Below are positions 143 to 26,114 of a stretch of 41,341 nt of DNA, one piece after another. Under the pieces are notes generated by a model that was given only the letters and a program-made list of their open reading frames with translations, was not told the origin of the DNA and made no database searches. This DNA comes from Planctomicrobium piriforme. GTDB lineage: Bacteria; Planctomycetota; Planctomycetia; Planctomycetales; Planctomycetaceae. Positions within the stretch are counted from its first letter, which is position 1; the number at the start of each line of letters is the position of its first letter. The stretch lies in assembly GCA_945860955.1 (NCBI GenBank), contig CAMATH010000077.1, positions 1 to 41,341 of the forward strand, in the 5' to 3' direction. Both the position numbers and the translations under genes were made by a program.

Positions 143-385
143 ATGACAACGTCGGCTCAAGCTCTCGTCGATTCCAAGGCAGCCTCGAAGATTCTGGCGA
201 TCAGCGAACGAACACTCTGGGGACTCGCGCACGGTGGCCAAATCCCCTTCGTTCGCGTCGCCCGTCGGCTCATTCGTTTTCGGCCGGGTGATCTGGCCGC
301 GTACATCGAGGGGCAAGTCAGTTCAACGGCTCCCGTAGCGTGTCCAGGTGCAGGCAAGCCCAGCCAGGGGGCGACGAATGGGTAG
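143..385 (+). CDS. Small excisionase-like helix-turn-helix DNA-binding protein
   Basis: An 80-residue protein. Residues about 10-55 fit the HTH_17/excisionase family: an AASKILAISERTLWGL helix-turn-helix, then a short wing with VARRLIRF and the closing FRPGDLAAYI, the usual signature of Xis/AlpA-like proteins. Such proteins bind DNA and act as recombination directionality factors or local transcription regulators. The ATG at 143 is chosen because it begins just before the HTH; a TTG at 131 is in frame but lies inside the repeat. The gene overlaps the next one by 8 bp, so the two are probably co-translated. No integrase is in the window; it may lie to the left. Confidence 0.75.
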   Translation: MTTSAQALVDSKAASKILAISERTLWGLAHGGQIPFVRVARRLIRFRPGDLAAYIEGQVSSTAPVACPGAGKPSQGATNG

Positions 386-647
386 TCGCCCCGACTTCCG
401 CAGCCATTTGACCCCGCCTGCGGTCGCAATCCAACTCGGTGTAAAACCTCAAAAGATCCTCGATTGGATCCGTTCGGGGGAACTGCGAGCCGTGAACCTT
501 GCGGCGGTCGCCCACGGGCAGAGACCGCGGTGGCGGATCTCGCCTGCGGATCTCGATCAGTTTCTCGCCACGCGGCGGGCCGTGGCCAGCGTTCCGCGAG
601 TTCGGCGATCTCGCCGACCGCCGCCTGACGTCATCAAGTTTTTCTGA
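378..647 (+). CDS. Second small helix-turn-helix protein (excisionase-like)
   Basis: An 89-residue basic protein. Residues about 10-65 again look like an HTH_17-type domain: LTPPAVAIQLGVKPQKILDW for the helix-turn-helix, GELRAVN for the wing and ISPADLDQFLATR for the last helix. A basic tail (RVRRSRRPPP) follows. The ATG at 378 overlaps the end of the preceding gene and has a G-rich ribosome-binding stretch (AGGGGGCG) just ahead. Two adjacent excisionase-like proteins are common at the control end of planctomycete integrated elements; one may control excision and the other transcription of the primase genes. That division is inference. Confidence 0.65.
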   Translation: MGSRPDFRSHLTPPAVAIQLGVKPQKILDWIRSGELRAVNLAAVAHGQRPRWRISPADLDQFLATRRAVASVPRVRRSRRPPPDVIKFF

Positions 648-722: not shown

Positions 723-1079
723 ATGAGATTCACCGTCAGCCAAGGTTTGTTCGCACCGGTCGGCGACTATCGTGCGACGCTTGTCGGCATCAAGGAGATG
801 AAGCCGCACGCCGAGTACGGTCGCAGCGTTCGCTTCATTTTTCGGGTGGCCGGTGGCGAGCACGACGGCGCAGAACCGTGTGCATTCATCAACGTCGAAG
901 ATCCGCCGAGCCCGACGAATCAGTTTGGCAGGTTTCTCGCGGGGTTGACCGGAACCGCGATTGTGCCTGGTTCGACGATCGACGTCGAGCAGTTCATCGG
1001 CAAGATCTTCCAGATCCAAGTCGAAGATGCCCCCAACCGCAAGGGAACCCGGGTCAGCAGCGCGACTCCGGCGTTCTAA
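723..1079 (+). CDS. Small conserved element protein, possible OB-fold ssDNA-binding protein
   Basis: A 118-residue protein of mixed beta-strand character (FTVSQGLFAPVGDYRATLVG, SVRFIFRVAGG, FQIQVEDAPN). It lies directly upstream of the primase gene. Position, size and beta pattern suggest a single-strand-binding or recombination accessory protein of the DUF669/gp2.5 kind, but no diagnostic motif can be named, so the function stays open. The ATG at 723 follows a purine-rich stretch (GAAAGAATTGCAGAG). A strong hairpin lies just beyond the stop codon and separates this gene from the primase gene. Confidence 0.55.
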   Translation: MRFTVSQGLFAPVGDYRATLVGIKEMKPHAEYGRSVRFIFRVAGGEHDGAEPCAFINVEDPPSPTNQFGRFLAGLTGTAIVPGSTIDVEQFIGKIFQIQVEDAPNRKGTRVSSATPAF

Positions 1080-1123: not shown

Positions 1124-1145
1124 CTTACAACGAAAGGTAGAAGTG

Positions 1146-3440
1146 ATGATACCGAACGATTCAACGATTTTGGAGGCGGCTCTCGAGTCCGCCGAACTCG
1201 GAATTGCCGTGTTCCCGTGCCATTCCATCGACGATGGAAAATGCACATGCGGAAAGACCGACTGCAAGCACCCGGGGAAGCACCCGGCGACGATGAAGGG
1301 ATTCAAGTCGGCAACGACTGACCCGCAGCAGATTCGCGAGATGTTTTCGCGGGGCAAGTTCAACATCGGCGCGGCGACCGGCTCGACGAGCGGTTGGTGG
1401 GTCCTGGATCTCGACGGCCCGGACGGGATCGCGGCCTTCGACGGCTGGATGCGGCAGGAAGGTGGAGAACTGCCGCCGATACCATCGTCGAGCACTGGCG
1501 GCGGCGGCAGGCACCTCTTCTGGAAAATGAATGGCGACGAGATCAGGAACACGACGAAAGTCGGCGGCGATCCGATCGACGTTCGCGGGACTGGTGGTTA
1601 TGTCATCCTGCCGCCGAGCAATCACGCCAGCGGCGGCTCCTACGCATGGGAGCGTCCCTTCGAGACGGGGATTGGGACCACGGCGCCCAACTGGCTCCTG
1701 GATCGGATCGCCGGACGAAAGTCTTCGGGTGGAAGTTCGCAGAACTCGCAAAGTTCGCAAGCCTCGCCGTTCACGTTCAAGATCGAAGCCGGCCTCGCCG
1801 ACAATCCGGGCGTGAATGAAGGGAGTCGCCACGACACGGCAATGCGGCTGATCGGTCGAGAACTGGCGGCCGGTAAGCCGGCGGCTCAGGTCGAGCGGCT
1901 GGCTCTCGCCTTCGGTGGCCGTTGCTCTCCGCCGATGGATGAAAAGGAAGTCGTTCGCATGGTGTACGACTTCGACCGGAACCGAACAGCCGAGCTTGCG
2001 GCCGAGGCGGATGCCGTTGATGAGGAGCCGTTGCCTGAGTCCAAGTGGCCAGTTTTGGCCCCAGCCGCATTCCACGGAATTCTCGGCGAGACGGTCAAGG
2101 CGATCGAACCCCATAGCGAGGCCGATCCAGCGGCGGTGCTGGTGCAAGTTTTGACAATGTTCGGAAACGCCATCGGCCGAGGGCCGTACTTCATGGTCGA
2201 GGGAACGGCGCATCACCCGCGGCTGTTCGCTGTCGTAGTGGGTGCCACCAGCCAAGGCCGAAAGGGAACGGGCGGCGACCGTGCGAAGAGTCTGTTCCAG
2301 AATCTCGACCTTGATTGGATCAGCGACCGCGTTCAGAACGGACTCGTTTCGGGCGAGGGATTGATACATGCGGTTCGCGATCCAGTGATCAAAACTGACA
2401 AGAATGGTCAGCAGAGCATCGTCGACGAAGGCGTCTCCGACAAACGCCTTCACGTGGTCGAGAGCGAGTTTGGTGGTGTTCTTCGAGTCTGCAAACGCGA
2501 GGGGAACACTCTCTCACCGACGATGCGCCAGGCATGGGACGGCAGCAATCTGCGGACGATGGCCAAGAATTCCGCCTGCAAGGCGACTGAGCCGCACATC
2601 TCGATTATCGGCCACATTACTCAAGCCGAACTCGCGACAACCCTGGGTGAGGTCGAAGTGTTCAACGGACTCGGGAACCGATTCCTCTGGATTGCCGCGC
2701 GGCGTTCCAAGCTTTTGCCAAGTGGTGGCGGCGACCTGGATCTCGGCCCCTTCGTCGCACGACTGTCCGCCGACTTCAATTCGGCAAAGCAGATCGGTCG
2801 GATGCGGCGTGACGAAGCCGCCGAGGCACGGTGGCAGGAGATCTACATTTCCTTGGCCGACGTCAACCACGGCGGCCTCGCGGGAGCCGTCACAAGCCGA
2901 GCCGAGGCCCAGGTGTTACGGCTCTCGATGATCTATGCTCTCGCCGATGCCAGCGCCTCGATCCGGGTCGAGCACCTCGAAGCGGCTCTCGCCGTCTGGC
3001 GATACAGTGAGGCGACTGCGCTCATGTTGTTCGCCGGCTCGACCGGAAACCGCCTCGACGACCGGCTCCTCGCCTTGATTCGCAAGTCTCCCGGAATCAG
3101 CCGGAAGGGACTGCATCAGGCTCTCAACAACCATTGCCCGGCCGCGGAGTTGGTGGCGGCCCTAGCCCGTCTGCGGGATGCTGGCCGGATTCGATGCGAA
3201 CATCGGACCGGTACTCGTGGCAGGTCGAGCGAGTGCTGGTGGCCCGAGAGTCTGCGAACTTTCGAACAAAGCGAACCTCGCGAGCAACGCCCCCCCGGCA
3301 CCTCGCCGACAGCCGAGAGTACCCGCGAACAAAGCGACGAAAGCGAACAAGCCACCCGAGCCGGCGGCGACGGTTCGCAAAGTTCGCAAAGTTCGCAAAG
3401 TTCGCAGGTCGCACGGGGAACGGAGGTATTCCGCCTGTGA
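1146..3440 (+). CDS. PrimPol-type primase/polymerase fused to DUF3987 helicase-like domain
   Basis: A 764-residue replication protein of an integrated element. Residues about 8-185 match the bifunctional primase-polymerase N-terminal domain (PF09250 type): GIAVFPC with a cysteine/histidine-rich insert (CTCGKTDCKHPGKHP), the catalytic VLDLDG, and GGGGRHLFW followed by DVRGTGGYVILPPS. A PriCT-like helical segment follows at about 225-275 (NEGSRHDTAMRLIGREL). From about 300 to 620 it resembles DUF3987, with a degenerate P-loop (GATSQGRKGTG). The C-terminus is low complexity, rich in SQSSQ and charged residues. It probably primes and unwinds element DNA. ATG at 1146 is preferred over the in-frame GTG at 1143. 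Its stop overlaps the start of the next gene, so the two are coupled. Confidence 0.85.
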   Translation: MIPNDSTILEAALESAELGIAVFPCHSIDDGKCTCGKTDCKHPGKHPATMKGFKSATTDPQQIREMFSRGKFNIGAATGSTSGWWVLDLDGPDGIAAFDGWMRQEGGELPPIPSSSTGGGGRHLFWKMNGDEIRNTTKVGGDPIDVRGTGGYVILPPSNHASGGSYAWERPFETGIGTTAPNWLLDRIAGRKSSGGSSQNSQSSQASPFTFKIEAGLADNPGVNEGSRHDTAMRLIGRELAAGKPAAQVERLALAFGGRCSPPMDEKEVVRMVYDFDRNRTAELAAEADAVDEEPLPESKWPVLAPAAFHGILGETVKAIEPHSEADPAAVLVQVLTMFGNAIGRGPYFMVEGTAHHPRLFAVVVGATSQGRKGTGGDRAKSLFQNLDLDWISDRVQNGLVSGEGLIHAVRDPVIKTDKNGQQSIVDEGVSDKRLHVVESEFGGVLRVCKREGNTLSPTMRQAWDGSNLRTMAKNSACKATEPHISIIGHITQAELATTLGEVEVFNGLGNRFLWIAARRSKLLPSGGGDLDLGPFVARLSADFNSAKQIGRMRRDEAAEARWQEIYISLADVNHGGLAGAVTSRAEAQVLRLSMIYALADASASIRVEHLEAALAVWRYSEATALMLFAGSTGNRLDDRLLALIRKSPGISRKGLHQALNNHCPAAELVAALARLRDAGRIRCEHRTGTRGRSSECWWPESLRTFEQSEPREQRPPGTSPTAESTREQSDESEQATRAGGDGSQSSQSSQSSQVARGTEVFRL
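3374..3408 (+). repeat. 9-bp tandem repeat encoding an SSQ tract in the primase tail
   Basis: TTCGCAAAG is repeated three times (3374-3400), followed by a partial fourth copy, and is read in frame as SQSSQSSQSSQ. A related short run (NSQSSQ) occurs near 1740-1760 in the linker after the PrimPol domain. It is a slippage-prone low-complexity stretch in disordered linkers. Confidence 0.8.
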
Positions 3441-4141: not shown

Positions 4142-4162
4142 GCGGGTGTCAGTGACACCCGC
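4142..4162. repeat. Near-perfect 21-bp palindrome
   Basis: GCGGGTGTCA and TGACACCCGC flank a single G. The sequence is between the last element gene and the tRNA fragment. Related half-sites (TGACACCCG) occur at 4354-4362 and 31147-31155, so it may be a dispersed planctomycete palindromic repeat or a protein-binding site. It has no T-run and so is not a convincing terminator. Confidence 0.6.
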
Positions 4163-4259
4163 TGGTGGCATGTTTTGGGCATTTACGGGCATCGTCGGAG
4201 TCGAATAAACGCCTTGAAAACAAGCCTTTTTAGTGCAAAACGAAAATCGTTCTTTAGAA

Positions 4260-4298
4260 TTAGAAATCCGTTGCTCTATCCAACTGAGCTACGGGGGC
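4260..4298 (-). pseudogene. 5' half of tRNA-Arg(UCU), broken at the anticodon loop
   Basis: Read on the minus strand from 4298, the sequence gives a normal 5' acceptor strand (GCCCCCG), TA, a D arm (GCTC, loop AGTTGGATA, GAGC), the 5' anticodon strand ACGGA and the loop TTTCTAA with anticodon TCT. The next bases are TTCTA where TCCGT is needed to close the anticodon stem. No T arm and no CGGGGGC acceptor partner are found downstream. The tRNA is therefore cut at the anticodon loop, a known crossover site for tyrosine integrases. A 9-bp inverted repeat (AAAACAAGC at 4217-4225, GCTTGTTTT at 4303-4311) brackets it. It most likely marks the right end of the element on its left. Confidence 0.75.
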
Positions 4299-4613
4299 AA
4301 ACGCTTGTTTTTTAGGGTTTTCTGCGGTTTCCGCCGTTGCTTTTCAGCATGGCTGACACCCGTTTTTTCCCCCACTATCGCCTCGGACTGTACGAAATCG
4401 CTCCCGACGGCGGCAACTGACGGCATTTAGCCGACATCCGCCCCTTTTCAGGGATTGGGCGATCAACGGAAAGGATTCTATCGAAGCCAAACGGGCAAAG
4501 CCACTTCCCGCTTCCCACACCCCCATCCGACCCATCGGATTCGCCCAGCGCTCCGAGGTTTCTCCCGTGCGGATTGATTCCGGGGACTGATTGCCGTCCG
4601 GGCCGAACCCATG
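4299..4613. other. Non-coding stretch beside the tRNA fragment
   Basis: About 315 bp without a recognisable gene. It holds one half of the 9-bp inverted repeat around the tRNA fragment, a TGACACCCG half-palindrome at 4354-4362 followed by a T/C run, and nothing else that can be named. It separates the integrated element from the housekeeping genes that follow. Confidence 0.5.
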
Positions 4614-5570
4614 CTAAAACGGCAACGGCCGGCCCAGCTTTTCCCGTTTCGCCAGTTCCAGCAGTTTGGCCCCCAAAGCGACATCTTCAATCGCCAGGCC
4701 GACCGACTTGAACAGCGTGATGCTCTCGGGCGTCTGTCGGCCGGCCGCCTGCCCGGTCACCACGTCGCTCAATTCATGCATGTTTGACCAGTCAACGGCA
4801 CCGTCTTCCAGCGCCTGCCGAAAATCTCCCGCTTCGAGCCGGCATTGCTCGATGCTGTCGCAGACGATTGAGTCGGCGCGGCGGACGGTTGTCACGTCGA
4901 TCTCGGCTTTGTTCCAATGATTCGCCCCCACGACGTTGAGGTGTGTCCCCTCATCCAGCACACGTCCATCAAACAGCGGTGTCCGGGCGGTCGTGGCGCA
5001 GATCACGATGTCTTTCTCGGCGGCGACGTCGTCCGGTGTGTGCATCGGCACGACGCGAGTCAGACACAGTTCCGACATTTCATCGGCGAACAACTGACAC
5101 TTGTCGATGTTGCGGGAATAGACTTCGACCAGCTCAATCTTGCGAACTTTGCAGACCCCTTGCAGTTGCGTCCGCGCCTGCTGACCCGCGCCGAACAGTC
5201 CTACGACTTTGCTGTCGGGCCGGGCCAGGAATTCGCTGGCGACGGCGCTCGCCGCCCCGGTTCGCAACTGCCCTAGATAGTCGGCTTCGACCAGCGCGAG
5301 CAGCTCACCTGTGACCGACGAATAGAGTCCCACGAGAAACTTTGCCCCTGCGGCGGTCGTGGTATAAGACTTCCAGCCCACCAGTCCCAGATAGTCCGCC
5401 GCAGCGGACATCGTGTGCAGGACAATCCCCTCCCCCCGCGCTCGCGCGCGGGGAACATTCGTCGCTCCTCCCTTGGCAAGCTGGCGAAACGCCTCTTCCA
5501 GAGCGGCAATCGCCAGATCCATGTCGAGCAGTTCGCGAACCTCGGAGTCGGAAATATAGAGGGGGGGCAT
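4614..5570 (-). CDS. Ornithine cyclodeaminase / mu-crystallin family protein
   Basis: A 318-residue member of the OCD/AlaDH2/mu-crystallin family, NAD(P)-dependent enzymes that deaminate or reduce small amino acids and imines. Visible features are the substrate-side Lys in GLVGWKSYT (about 67), the family segment ADYLGQLRTGAASAVAS (97-113) and the Rossmann fold VVGLFGAGQQARTQL (122-136), then TVVRRADSIVCD and a C-terminal TLFKSVGLAIEDVALG, which is highly typical. Substrate (ornithine, alanine or a ketimine) cannot be told. The ATG at 5570 is chosen because homology begins there and GGAG lies just upstream; an in-frame start further upstream adds an arginine-rich tail unlike the family. A TATAAT box lies about 90 bp upstream. 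Confidence 0.85.
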   Translation of the reverse strand: MPPLYISDSEVRELLDMDLAIAALEEAFRQLAKGGATNVPRARARGEGIVLHTMSAAADYLGLVGWKSYTTTAAGAKFLVGLYSSVTGELLALVEADYLGQLRTGAASAVASEFLARPDSKVVGLFGAGQQARTQLQGVCKVRKIELVEVYSRNIDKCQLFADEMSELCLTRVVPMHTPDDVAAEKDIVICATTARTPLFDGRVLDEGTHLNVVGANHWNKAEIDVTTVRRADSIVCDSIEQCRLEAGDFRQALEDGAVDWSNMHELSDVVTGQAAGRQTPESITLFKSVGLAIEDVALGAKLLELAKREKLGRPLPF

Positions 5571-5660
5571 TGACGTCGCTCCTCGCAGGGGGAACCGCGC
5601 GGGACGCTCTCGCGAGCGCTCCCGGGCGGCATTTCGTGAAGGGTGAGGTGTCGCTGCCGT

Positions 5661-5666
5661 ATTATA
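5661..5666 (-). promoter_or_regulatory. Candidate -10 box (TATAAT) of the cyclodeaminase-family gene
   Basis: A perfect TATAAT on the minus strand, about 91 bp upstream of the ATG at 5570. No good -35 is seen at 16-18 bp, so the promoter is only partly supported. Confidence 0.35.
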
Positions 5667-5736
5667 ACGCAACCATCGGAAAATCACCCGAAATCGCGGG
5701 CAACGATCCGTGCCGCTTCAATGCACTCCCGGCGAA

Positions 5737-24074: not shown

Positions 24075-24132
24075 ATTGGCGAATTCATTCGCCAATCTCC
24101 ATTCAGTCTAGCGAACGAATTCGCCAAGTCAA
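24075..24132 (-). promoter_or_regulatory. Promoter with two BlaI-type operators
   Basis: On the minus strand TTGACT (24132-24127) and TAGACT (24110-24105), 16 bp apart, form a sigma-70-like promoter for blaI. One operator (24107-24128, core TTGGCGAATTCGTTCGC) covers the spacer between the two boxes. A second, perfect palindrome (24075-24096: ATTGGCGAA, TTCA, TTCGCCAAT) lies just past the expected start point. The centres are 32 bp apart, about three helical turns. This is the arrangement expected for repression by a BlaI dimer pair. The sequences are seen; binding is inferred. Confidence 0.75.
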
Positions 24133-24139
24133 GAGCCGA

Positions 24140-25633
24140 CTACCAGATCAACGGTGCCGGCTCGTTCTTCCAGAAGATCCAGCGGCGGGTTTCCCGGTGG
24201 GTCGCGGTCGAAATCGTCTGTGGATCGCGCTCCCCCGTATCGAGATCAAGCAAGCAGAGAAACCCCGCGCAGCTTGTGACGATCAGCTTTTTGCCATCAC
24301 GACTGATGTCGATGTCTTCGATCGTGGAACCGATGAAGTGCTGCCAGCGGAATTTTCCCGCGAAATCAAACGCTCGCAAGTAACCGTAGGCGTCACTGAC
24401 AATGAATTCGTCACCACGGGAGATGGCCGCATACACCCGCATGCCATCTTCCAGTGCGATCAACGGCGGTGCCATCTCGTAGGGTTTCGTGTGGAGCCCC
24501 GGAAGTTCGCTCGTGGGAACTCCGATTGTGATTCCGCTATAGAAGTGACACGAATTGAACAGGATCAAACTCGAATCGGCATTGAACGCCGCAAAATGCG
24601 GGTACTCGCTCTGAGGGCCGATCTCCCCCGCCACAGCCAAAGTCTCGGCGTCAAACACCAAATGCTGACTCCCCTGATGACCGGCGGCAATCCACTTTCC
24701 ATCAGGCGACACGGCACCATGTTCCATGTAGAGCCGATAAGGCAGTGGCACTGACGATTTATCGTCCCGCAACAATTCGAAGTCTTCCAGAATTTCAGCA
24801 CTCGTGGGAAGAAGTCGCGACGCCCCGTCGCTTCGCAGCACGAAGACCCCCGTTTCGCTCACGAGCAACGCACGACTTCCATCGGCGAACGGCACGAGAC
24901 GAGTCACTGGCGGGGGATTTTTCGGAGCGGGAACGTTGAGTTCCTTTGGAACTCCTTCGAGTCCGGTCGGCCACGAGAGTTGGGAAATGACCGGCCCCTG
25001 CCAGCCGTCGTGGACGTTGACTCCGGTTTCGGTGGCCAACGCGAAGAACCGACGGTCCGGTGATCGCCCAATCGCTATCAGCCCGGGAAGATCGGTCACG
25101 GTTGTCCCCTCAATCAGATGAAATCGGGGCGACTCCGTCGGCGATCCAACTTGCAATACAACTCGGCCGTCGTCGAGTAACAACGCGAGAGGCAGAGATT
25201 GCCCCTGTTCGTCCAGCATCGCGAGCAACGGTTCCTGCGCCGGTGGAAACCGTTCGCGCAGGCCATTGGTCTCACCCCGCCGATTGGCCTCACGCACGAC
25301 CCGCATGACGGCTTGCGCCAATGGCCCCCGGTTGTCCTCGAGTGTTTCTCTGGGAACGTCTGCCACGCTCTCCCAGCCCTCCGTGAGTCCCCGGCGCACA
25401 TAGTCATTCACGACGTTCGCGTGCCTCAGGCCTTCTTGCGTCCAGGTGCGTGACAGTTCGTCTTCGGTCATTGTGGCTCCATCGGGGAGCTGGGACATTT
25501 GGGCCTCACTCGCGCCAGGCGGCGGTGTTAGGTGACGCGGACGGCAACCCGCGGCCACCAGCGCGATGGCCATCGGGAGGTGGCGGGACAGGAAACCCTG
25601 TAGCACTGTAGCGGCCTCCAAAACCGAGTTCAT
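24140..25633 (-). CDS. Lipoprotein with beta-propeller-like repeats, unknown function
   Basis: A 497-residue predicted lipoprotein: a hydrophobic leader ends in the lipobox LVAAGC with Cys30. The rest is made of beta-rich repeats with WD/YVTN-like features (FALATETGVNVHDGW, GAVSPDGKWIAAGHQGSQHL, DISRDGKKLIVTSCAGFLCL), fitting a quinoprotein- or WD40-like propeller. Start at ATG 25633 is chosen because a GAGG lies 9 nt upstream and the leader begins there; an ATG at 25654 is also in frame. It is transcribed toward the blaI promoter and ends only 8 bp before the -35 box. Its last 48 codons exist again, nearly identical, at 25894-26052. Confidence 0.7.
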   Translation of the reverse strand: MNSVLEAATVLQGFLSRHLPMAIALVAAGCRPRHLTPPPGASEAQMSQLPDGATMTEDELSRTWTQEGLRHANVVNDYVRRGLTEGWESVADVPRETLEDNRGPLAQAVMRVVREANRRGETNGLRERFPPAQEPLLAMLDEQGQSLPLALLLDDGRVVLQVGSPTESPRFHLIEGTTVTDLPGLIAIGRSPDRRFFALATETGVNVHDGWQGPVISQLSWPTGLEGVPKELNVPAPKNPPPVTRLVPFADGSRALLVSETGVFVLRSDGASRLLPTSAEILEDFELLRDDKSSVPLPYRLYMEHGAVSPDGKWIAAGHQGSQHLVFDAETLAVAGEIGPQSEYPHFAAFNADSSLILFNSCHFYSGITIGVPTSELPGLHTKPYEMAPPLIALEDGMRVYAAISRGDEFIVSDAYGYLRAFDFAGKFRWQHFIGSTIEDIDISRDGKKLIVTSCAGFLCLLDLDTGERDPQTISTATHRETRRWIFWKNEPAPLIW

Positions 25634-25893: not shown

Positions 25894-26052
25894 CGCCAAG
25901 TCAAGAGCCGATTACCAGATCAACGGTGCCGGCTCGTTCTTCCAGAAGATCCAGCGGCGGGTTTCCCGGTGGGTCGCGGTCGAAATCGTCTGTGGAGCGC
26001 GCTCCCCCGTATCGAGATCGAGCAGGCTGAGAAATCCCGCGCAGCTCGTAAC
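25894..26052 (-). pseudogene. Tail fragment of a paralogue of the lipoprotein gene
   Basis: This 159-bp block aligns without gaps to 24122-24280, with about 9 differences (about 94% identity). It covers the last 46-47 codons, the stop codon and about 17 bp beyond. Seven of the nine differences do not change the protein (six at third codon positions, one a silent Leu change); the stop is TAG in one copy and TAA in the other. Two residues change (Asp to Ala, Cys to Ser). The rest of the gene is absent: similarity stops abruptly at 26052. It is therefore the remains of a second, once-functional copy rather than a fresh duplication. Confidence 0.8.
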
Positions 26053-26114
26053 AATGGCTCATCCGGAGAATGCGTACCTGGGCAGAAACAGGATCTGAAA
26101 AGTCTCACCGGCGG

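Follow-up and report, generated by a model that had tools for sequence, protein, structure and literature searches.

A tRNA-Arg(UCU) half at the border of a primase/excisionase module

The window analyzed here, 41,341 nucleotides long, is the entire contig C77 of a Planctomicrobium piriforme genome (G000, 282 contigs). Its minus strand, read from 4298 to 4259, aligns side by side with nucleotides 1 to 40 of tRNA-Arg(UCU) and then diverges. The fragment keeps the acceptor 5' strand, the D arm, the 5' strand of the anticodon stem, and the anticodon loop. Neither ARAGORN nor Rfam calls a tRNA at this position, as expected of a half gene, and ARAGORN finds no intact tRNA gene in the window. A preliminary description of this DNA had placed a 5' part of tRNA-Arg(UCU) without its 3' half at the border of a primase/excisionase module. 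Indeed, two HTH_17 proteins and a Prim-Pol primase lie on the element side of the fragment and chromosomal metabolic genes on its outer side, including a cyclodeaminase gene that is matched in 15 of 25 genomes searched, its own included (Table 1). The 9-bp inverted repeat described as bracketing the fragment does exist, and it is ordinary as a candidate functional site: when the two 50-bp flanks were Markov-shuffled 5000 times, 776 of the shuffles held one.

Table 1. Features at the left end of the window and their basis
Feature	Position	Strand	Basis or remark
Repeat common to contigs C274, C186, and C228	1..148	.	Probably why the contig breaks within the element
HTH_17 excisionase-like protein, second copy	146..382	+	PF12728, E 3e-9
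HTH_17 excisionase-like protein	378..644	+	PF12728, E 8e-10; homologues in 8 of 11 sibling elements compared
Small element protein	723..1076	+	No Pfam match at 0.1
Primase-helicase (Prim-Pol, PriCT_1)	1143..3440	+	PF09250, E 1.4e-34; PHROG primases
Palindromic GCGGGTGTCAGTGACACCCGC, far arm of the element	4142..4162	.	Candidate integrase or excisionase binding site
9-bp inverted repeat	4217-4225 / 4303-4311	.	Within chance
Displaced 5' half, tRNA-Arg(UCU) positions 1-40, ending in the anticodon loop	4259..4298	-	Sequence, 92% match to contig C156, alignment
Outer 5' flank of the displaced half: A-rich AAAACAAGC and one GGGTGTC	4299..4370	-	Resembles integrase-side arm; probably left by an earlier integration
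CGGGTGTCA, arm-type motif outside the displaced half	4354..4362	-	Distance to the tRNA nearly as in the C156 arm; one copy in the outer flank
Ornithine cyclodeaminase/mu-crystallin family gene	4614..5687	-	PF02423, E 2.7e-54; chromosomal, outside the element

Residues 300 to 699 of the primase match proteins of L152 and L112, two of the 11 sibling elements compared (elements of the integrase family described below), and in L152 the excisionase and primase genes have the same order and direction. Part of the window element is missing, and the ORFs searched in what is present include no head or packaging gene. The repeat at the start of the window is 100% identical in C274 and about 95% identical in C228 and C186, with additional partial copies, and is probably the end of a transposable element. 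Its presence on three other contigs is the likely reason that C77 breaks where it does. A near-perfect 18-nt inverted repeat without a spacer (1089-1124) stands just 5' of the primase gene and could be a terminator or a regulatory hairpin. Far from the module, the window holds a 162-nt direct repeat (24122-24283 and 25894-26055) whose copies are 94% identical and 1772 nt apart.

An intact tRNA-Arg(UCU) gene beside a tyrosine integrase

In a search of the whole genome, the best non-self match of the fragment is C156:2875-2938 (92% over 64 nt, E 6e-19), which takes in 24 nt of 5' flank and then tRNA. ARAGORN identifies an intact tRNA-Arg(UCU) there, at C156:2899-2973; it is the only UCU gene found among the best 30 of 48 tRNA-like places in the genome, which were typed. 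The same contig encodes a tyrosine integrase of 378 amino acids (C156:1593-2729, minus strand; PF00589, PHROG integrase). The integrase gene starts 170 bp upstream of the tRNA 5' end and points away from it, which places the element against the 5' side of the intact gene. The remainder of the contig's start, C156:1-1330, holds a piece of an FGE-sulfatase-type gene and an unmatched ORF.

The sequence common to the displaced half and the C156 copy extends for about 40 nt with one mismatch. In the intact gene, the acceptor strands (GCCCTCG and CGGGGGT) pair with a U-G wobble, whereas the acceptor 5' strand of the displaced half, GCCCCCG, would pair better and is also that of the tRNA-Arg(UCU) genes of two relatives, G001 and G002. 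The wobble and the better-pairing displaced strand thus make the intact gene look chimeric, with a foreign 5' half. Judging from these sequences, a new 5' half seems to have come with the element, and the older half to have been pushed to its far end. Of the two relatives, G001 is the better native comparator, because an integrase lies just upstream of the G002 gene; on the 5' side of the G001 gene there is no integrase ORF within 3 kb. The last 70 bp of the element arm have a sigma-70-like score of 7.46 versus 7.22 in shuffles, barely above these, with 1 of 100 shuffles as good.

The integrase end with the intact tRNA and the excisionase/primase end with the displaced half are thus on two unjoined contigs. 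Contig ends provide no join between C77 and C156: C77 starts with the repeat, and the first 250 bases of C156 match elsewhere weakly (best E 2e-9). One of the two options in the preliminary description was an element with a 5' half of its own at the opposite end. The intact gene and adjacent integrase on C156 agree with this, as does the same layout, present on one contig, in the 12 sibling loci described next. The 3' half described as missing is indeed absent at the fragment; we read it as left in the host, where it is part of the intact gene.

A family of integrases on the 5' side of tRNA genes

Relatives of the C156 integrase at E 1e-30 or better occur in 60 of 170 genomes of the same order, and at 1e-40 in 6 of 392 genomes drawn evenly from the phylum, all in the same family; its own genome is included in both counts. 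A genome-wide pattern scan with the single integrase recovered only 2 loci. We examined 71 nonredundant loci in which the integrase N terminus is present, namely, 70 of 108 places listed plus L128; L129 is identical to L174, and most of the remaining places were partial matches or were not retrieved. A divergent tRNA gene lies 78 to 306 bp upstream of 57 of the 71 family integrases, a same-strand tRNA is present in one, and no tRNA is found upstream of 13, three of which have a contig end within 150 bp. Hence, 57 of the 58 tRNA-adjacent members take the 5'-side position, and these 57 loci target 17 tRNA species by anticodon. Loci L178 and L249 are family integrases beside a same-strand rather than a divergent tRNA.

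We looked for displaced halves in 28 loci, those whose element-side sequence reaches 9 kb or more. In 12 of them, L116 and L117 included, a displaced 5' half lies at the far end in direct orientation, and the break is always at tRNA position 39 to 42. No clear displaced half was found in the other 16; L113 (positions 13-36, 87.5%, E 0.001) was counted among these. The distance to the displaced half is 9.4 to 16.8 kb in ten loci and about 40 and 42 kb in two. The halves match at 1e-14 or better, compared with E 0.003 for the best inverted copy or 3' half. Displaced and intact halves differ by zero to two mismatches (none in nine loci, one in L141, two in L155), and the L119 pair has the same C-to-T difference as the window/C156 pair. 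These 12 loci show the signature used by Islander, that is, an intact tRNA and a fragment in the same orientation on one replicon with the integrase between them; the ends of the window element are on separate contigs.

Using an alignment of the family, we also found viral contigs, and 10 of 40 such family loci have a divergent tRNA upstream, with one having a same-strand tRNA. Altogether, 42 loci (29 viral and 13 genomic) have no intact upstream tRNA, and 13 of the 42 have less than 210 bp upstream. In six of the 42, a bare 5' half stands 102 to 260 bp upstream of the integrase and is followed by unrelated sequence (L228, L235, L236, L240, L256, and L175; five IMG/VR contigs and one genome contig). 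At L093 and L188, the contig stops partway through a 5' half. Random 660-bp windows of viral loci, arms not excluded, gave matches in 6 of 200 at 1e-8 and in 13 of 117 at the looser 1e-3. Among 29 viral loci whose upstream sequence reaches 250 bp or more, 14 show neither a tRNA nor a clear half; some of these 14 are only 27 to 35% identical to the query. The six bare-half copies are apparently unintegrated, and they match the attP that our model predicts, which holds the 5' half only.

The integrase clade lacks the first catalytic arginine

As controls, we chose by hand 40 other tyrosine integrases, each in a 5-kb stretch. They come from 9 of 10 complete genomes searched in the order; family members, the strongest matches, and duplicates within G052 were excluded. 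A tRNA is near 22 of the 40, and the integrase is on its 3' side in 22 of 22. Since the tRNA-adjacent controls of the same order are all on the 3' side, polarity goes with the clade and not with the genomes. Further, in a tree of 69 of the 71 family integrases (those longer than 300 amino acids) and 40 others (39 controls and the G002 integrase), the family sequences separate from the others with a support of 1.0.

In the same alignment, none of the 69 family members has the first catalytic arginine (63 have glycine) and all 40 others do; profile alignment to XerD agrees with this. The catalytic lysine and the second arginine are kept in 69 of 69 members and the tyrosine in 68 of 69, and a near-invariant tyrosine occupies the position of the first histidine. 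The family therefore departs from the canonical tyrosine recombinase pattern (R-K-H-R-H plus Tyr). An arginine two residues before the catalytic lysine is present in 69 of 69 family members versus 6 of 40 others, suggesting that this invariant residue may take over from the lost one. According to excerpts of a survey by Smyshlyaev et al. (2021; PMC8138268), the CTnDOT integrase has the same arginine loss, made good by a downstream arginine, and IntDes has a shifted arginine. The family described here differs in that it was found in planctomycetes and targets tRNA genes from the 5' side; the likeness noted is one of residue pattern.

An arm motif and the flank of the displaced half

The hexamer GGTGTC/GACACC occurs 9.74 times per kb in the 57 integrase-side arms versus 1.18 times per kb in host 3' flanks, an enrichment of about eightfold. 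Of the 57 integrase-side arms, 33 have it, but just 4 of 12 sibling elements carry it on both sides. The window element has it at both ends, with five and two copies, and in the far arm it forms a perfect palindrome.

Outside the displaced half, the flank is similar to the C156 arm and to the two G002 junctions, for which 0, 1, and 0 of 1000 shuffles, respectively, were as good. It has no likeness to the flanks of G001, G003, and G004 (766, 815, and 350 of 1000 shuffles as good). On these similarities, we lean toward reading the outer flank as a remnant of a previous element at this tRNA. A search for a remnant integrase outside the displaced half gave nothing convincing, the best of 22 rows having E 0.038. 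The preliminary description had also raised the idea of a tRNA that was split and displaced; in our reading the fragment is displaced, and it may derive from an earlier element, not the native gene.

Searches for an empty site in relatives

Comparison with close relatives for an empty site, as the preliminary description proposed, came back negative: none was found in the relatives searched for the C77 and C156 flanks nor by joined-flank searches of two sibling elements. In G002, the host genes of C77 and those of C156 are on separate contigs, neither with a tRNA by ARAGORN, and homology begins at the end of the cyclodeaminase gene for C77 and at the last tRNA bases for C156. The joined-flank search in G044 gave separate partial matches only, with the flank gene on one contig and tRNA matches on others, and that in G103 showed that this genome also has an insertion there, divided among contigs. 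L168 (G101) and L349/L353 (G103) come from two congeneric species and apparently represent one and the same insertion, at the same tRNA-Arg(CCU). On G103:C965, a second copy of the flank with the 5' half lies about 2 kb away.

In G002 (L101:7143-8393 and L100:841-908), the tRNA-Arg(UCU) gene has a different integrase about 10 bp upstream, which keeps the usual arginine. A displaced 5' half is located on contig C794 of the same genome, beside ORFs that look phage-like by eye. Integration of the 5' type may thus have arisen more than once.

A proposed integration model and its alternatives

We propose that the fragment at 4259-4298 is the far attachment site of an integrated element whose tyrosine integrase would recombine in the tRNA anticodon loop with reversed polarity, a reading to which, taken as a whole, we assign a probability of roughly 0.87. 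At integration, the 5' half carried by the element would be joined to the host 3' half, producing the chimeric intact gene beside the integrase, and the previous 5' half would be pushed to the other end of the element. The element would then run from C156, with the integrase and the chimeric tRNA-Arg(UCU), across the gap to C77, with the excisionase/primase module and the displaced half. In such an arrangement, transcription of tRNA-Arg(UCU) would be driven by the element.

Alternatively, the half gene could have no relation to the module and be left over from a duplicated or rearranged tRNA-Arg gene, with the C156 integrase belonging to another element. That C77 and C156 are unjoined and that their two flanks are side by side in no relative searched would both fit such a remnant. 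However, the break in the anticodon loop falls at the same place as in the 12 sibling elements, the half lies directly against an excisionase/primase module that has homologues in siblings, and the element side carries the arm motif, which together make the remnant unlikely. Still less probable is a host tRNA that was broken, left unrestored, and rescued by another tRNA gene, as in the tRNA-dependent lysogeny of mycobacteriophages. Such an event would likewise leave a broken half gene beside a mobile module. Yet the intact gene lies at the integrase end and has a 5' half unlike the displaced one, the shared stretch is about 40 nt long versus about 10 bp in that system (PMC10865867), and the window has no tRNA gene, whereas in such lysogeny the element encodes the rescuing tRNA.

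A further question is whose half was displaced under the proposed integration model. It could be the native 5' half of the host, its flank resembling an arm since an element had once captured the native flank. Consistent with this, its acceptor sequence is the same as that of the G001 gene. The flanks in G001, G003, and G004 nevertheless share nothing with the flank of the displaced half, whereas both G002 junctions and the C156 arm do, and this flank has the arm-type GGGTGTC at almost the same spacing. We thus regard a native origin as possible, although the less favored of the two, and an origin from an earlier element as preferable. The broader reading, in which an arginine-less recombinase clade swaps the upstream region and 5' half of tRNA genes, a tRNA gene whose 3' half was swapped at the anticodon loop by an ordinary island can end up as wholly mobile DNA, and the 5' half of the window tRNA-Arg(UCU) was overwritten at least twice, leaving the displaced half as a fossil, we consider an even bet.

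Relation to known islands and satellites

Islands of the 5' type are already known and rare. As far as excerpts of the Islander paper go, 159 islands have 5' fragments and 3760 have 3' fragments, for a total of 3919 (PMC4383910); a second source, also consulted as excerpts, describes 5'-distal recombination as considerably less frequent (PMC6563490). The 5'-fragment islands (Islander; Zhao and Williams 2002) resemble the elements described here in having an intact tRNA at one end, a displaced 5' fragment at the other, and an integrase between. In the material seen, the Islander 5' class is a total without named clades, whereas here one integrase clade is fixed in polarity across its tRNA species. 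The pTN3-like integrases of Thermococcales also use the tRNA 5' half (PMC8371274, PMC5495485); by the same partial accounts, they are archaeal and the integrase gene is disrupted on integration, whereas here the integrase gene stays whole, at the upstream spacing given above. What is new is a clade fixed in 5' polarity that lacks the first arginine and tRNA genes that are flanked by both 5'- and 3'-type elements. Among the matches listed, we found no published description of clade-wide 5' polarity at the level of titles and abstracts. Because displaced 3' halves are the rule for tRNA-gene islands, a clade of opposite polarity offers a natural experiment on the direction of integration. Further, with a swapped 5' half the cell would entrust the upstream region of a tRNA to a mobile element, making element regulation and dependence testable.

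Capsid-forming phage satellites of the cfPICI/PICI type carry an integrase, an excisionase, a primase, and their own head or packaging genes in about 10 to 17 kb, without tail genes. We read the ORFs of five sibling elements and tested four. A fused head protease-major head protein is encoded in L115 and L145 and a large terminase in L112 and L152, and these four elements, of about 9 to 11 kb, combine an integrase and a primase-like protein with head or packaging genes. Tail genes were judged absent by reading the ORFs of the five. Sharing these genes, and an excisionase-like protein in most of the 11 compared, the sibling elements look like capsid-forming phage satellites from their sequences. 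They differ from cfPICI/PICI in that they attach in the 5' manner and have no known helper, and the ORFs searched in the window element include no head or terminase gene.

tRNA genes between two elements

A second integrase is found on the tRNA 3' side in at least 9 of the 57 family loci, of which only 24 have 700 bp of sequence there. The presence of elements of both kinds at one tRNA gene suggests that each of its halves can be replaced. At the tRNA-Arg(CCU) of G169 (L114/L295), the tRNA gene lies between a 5'-type and a 3'-type integrase, and we propose that its 5' half came from one element and its 3' half from another. On the side of the first integrase, about 59 kb of sequence yielded no displaced 5' half. 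A displaced 3' half, identical over positions 31 to 75 (L335:9121-9165), is located about 10 kb downstream of the tRNA, past the second integrase.
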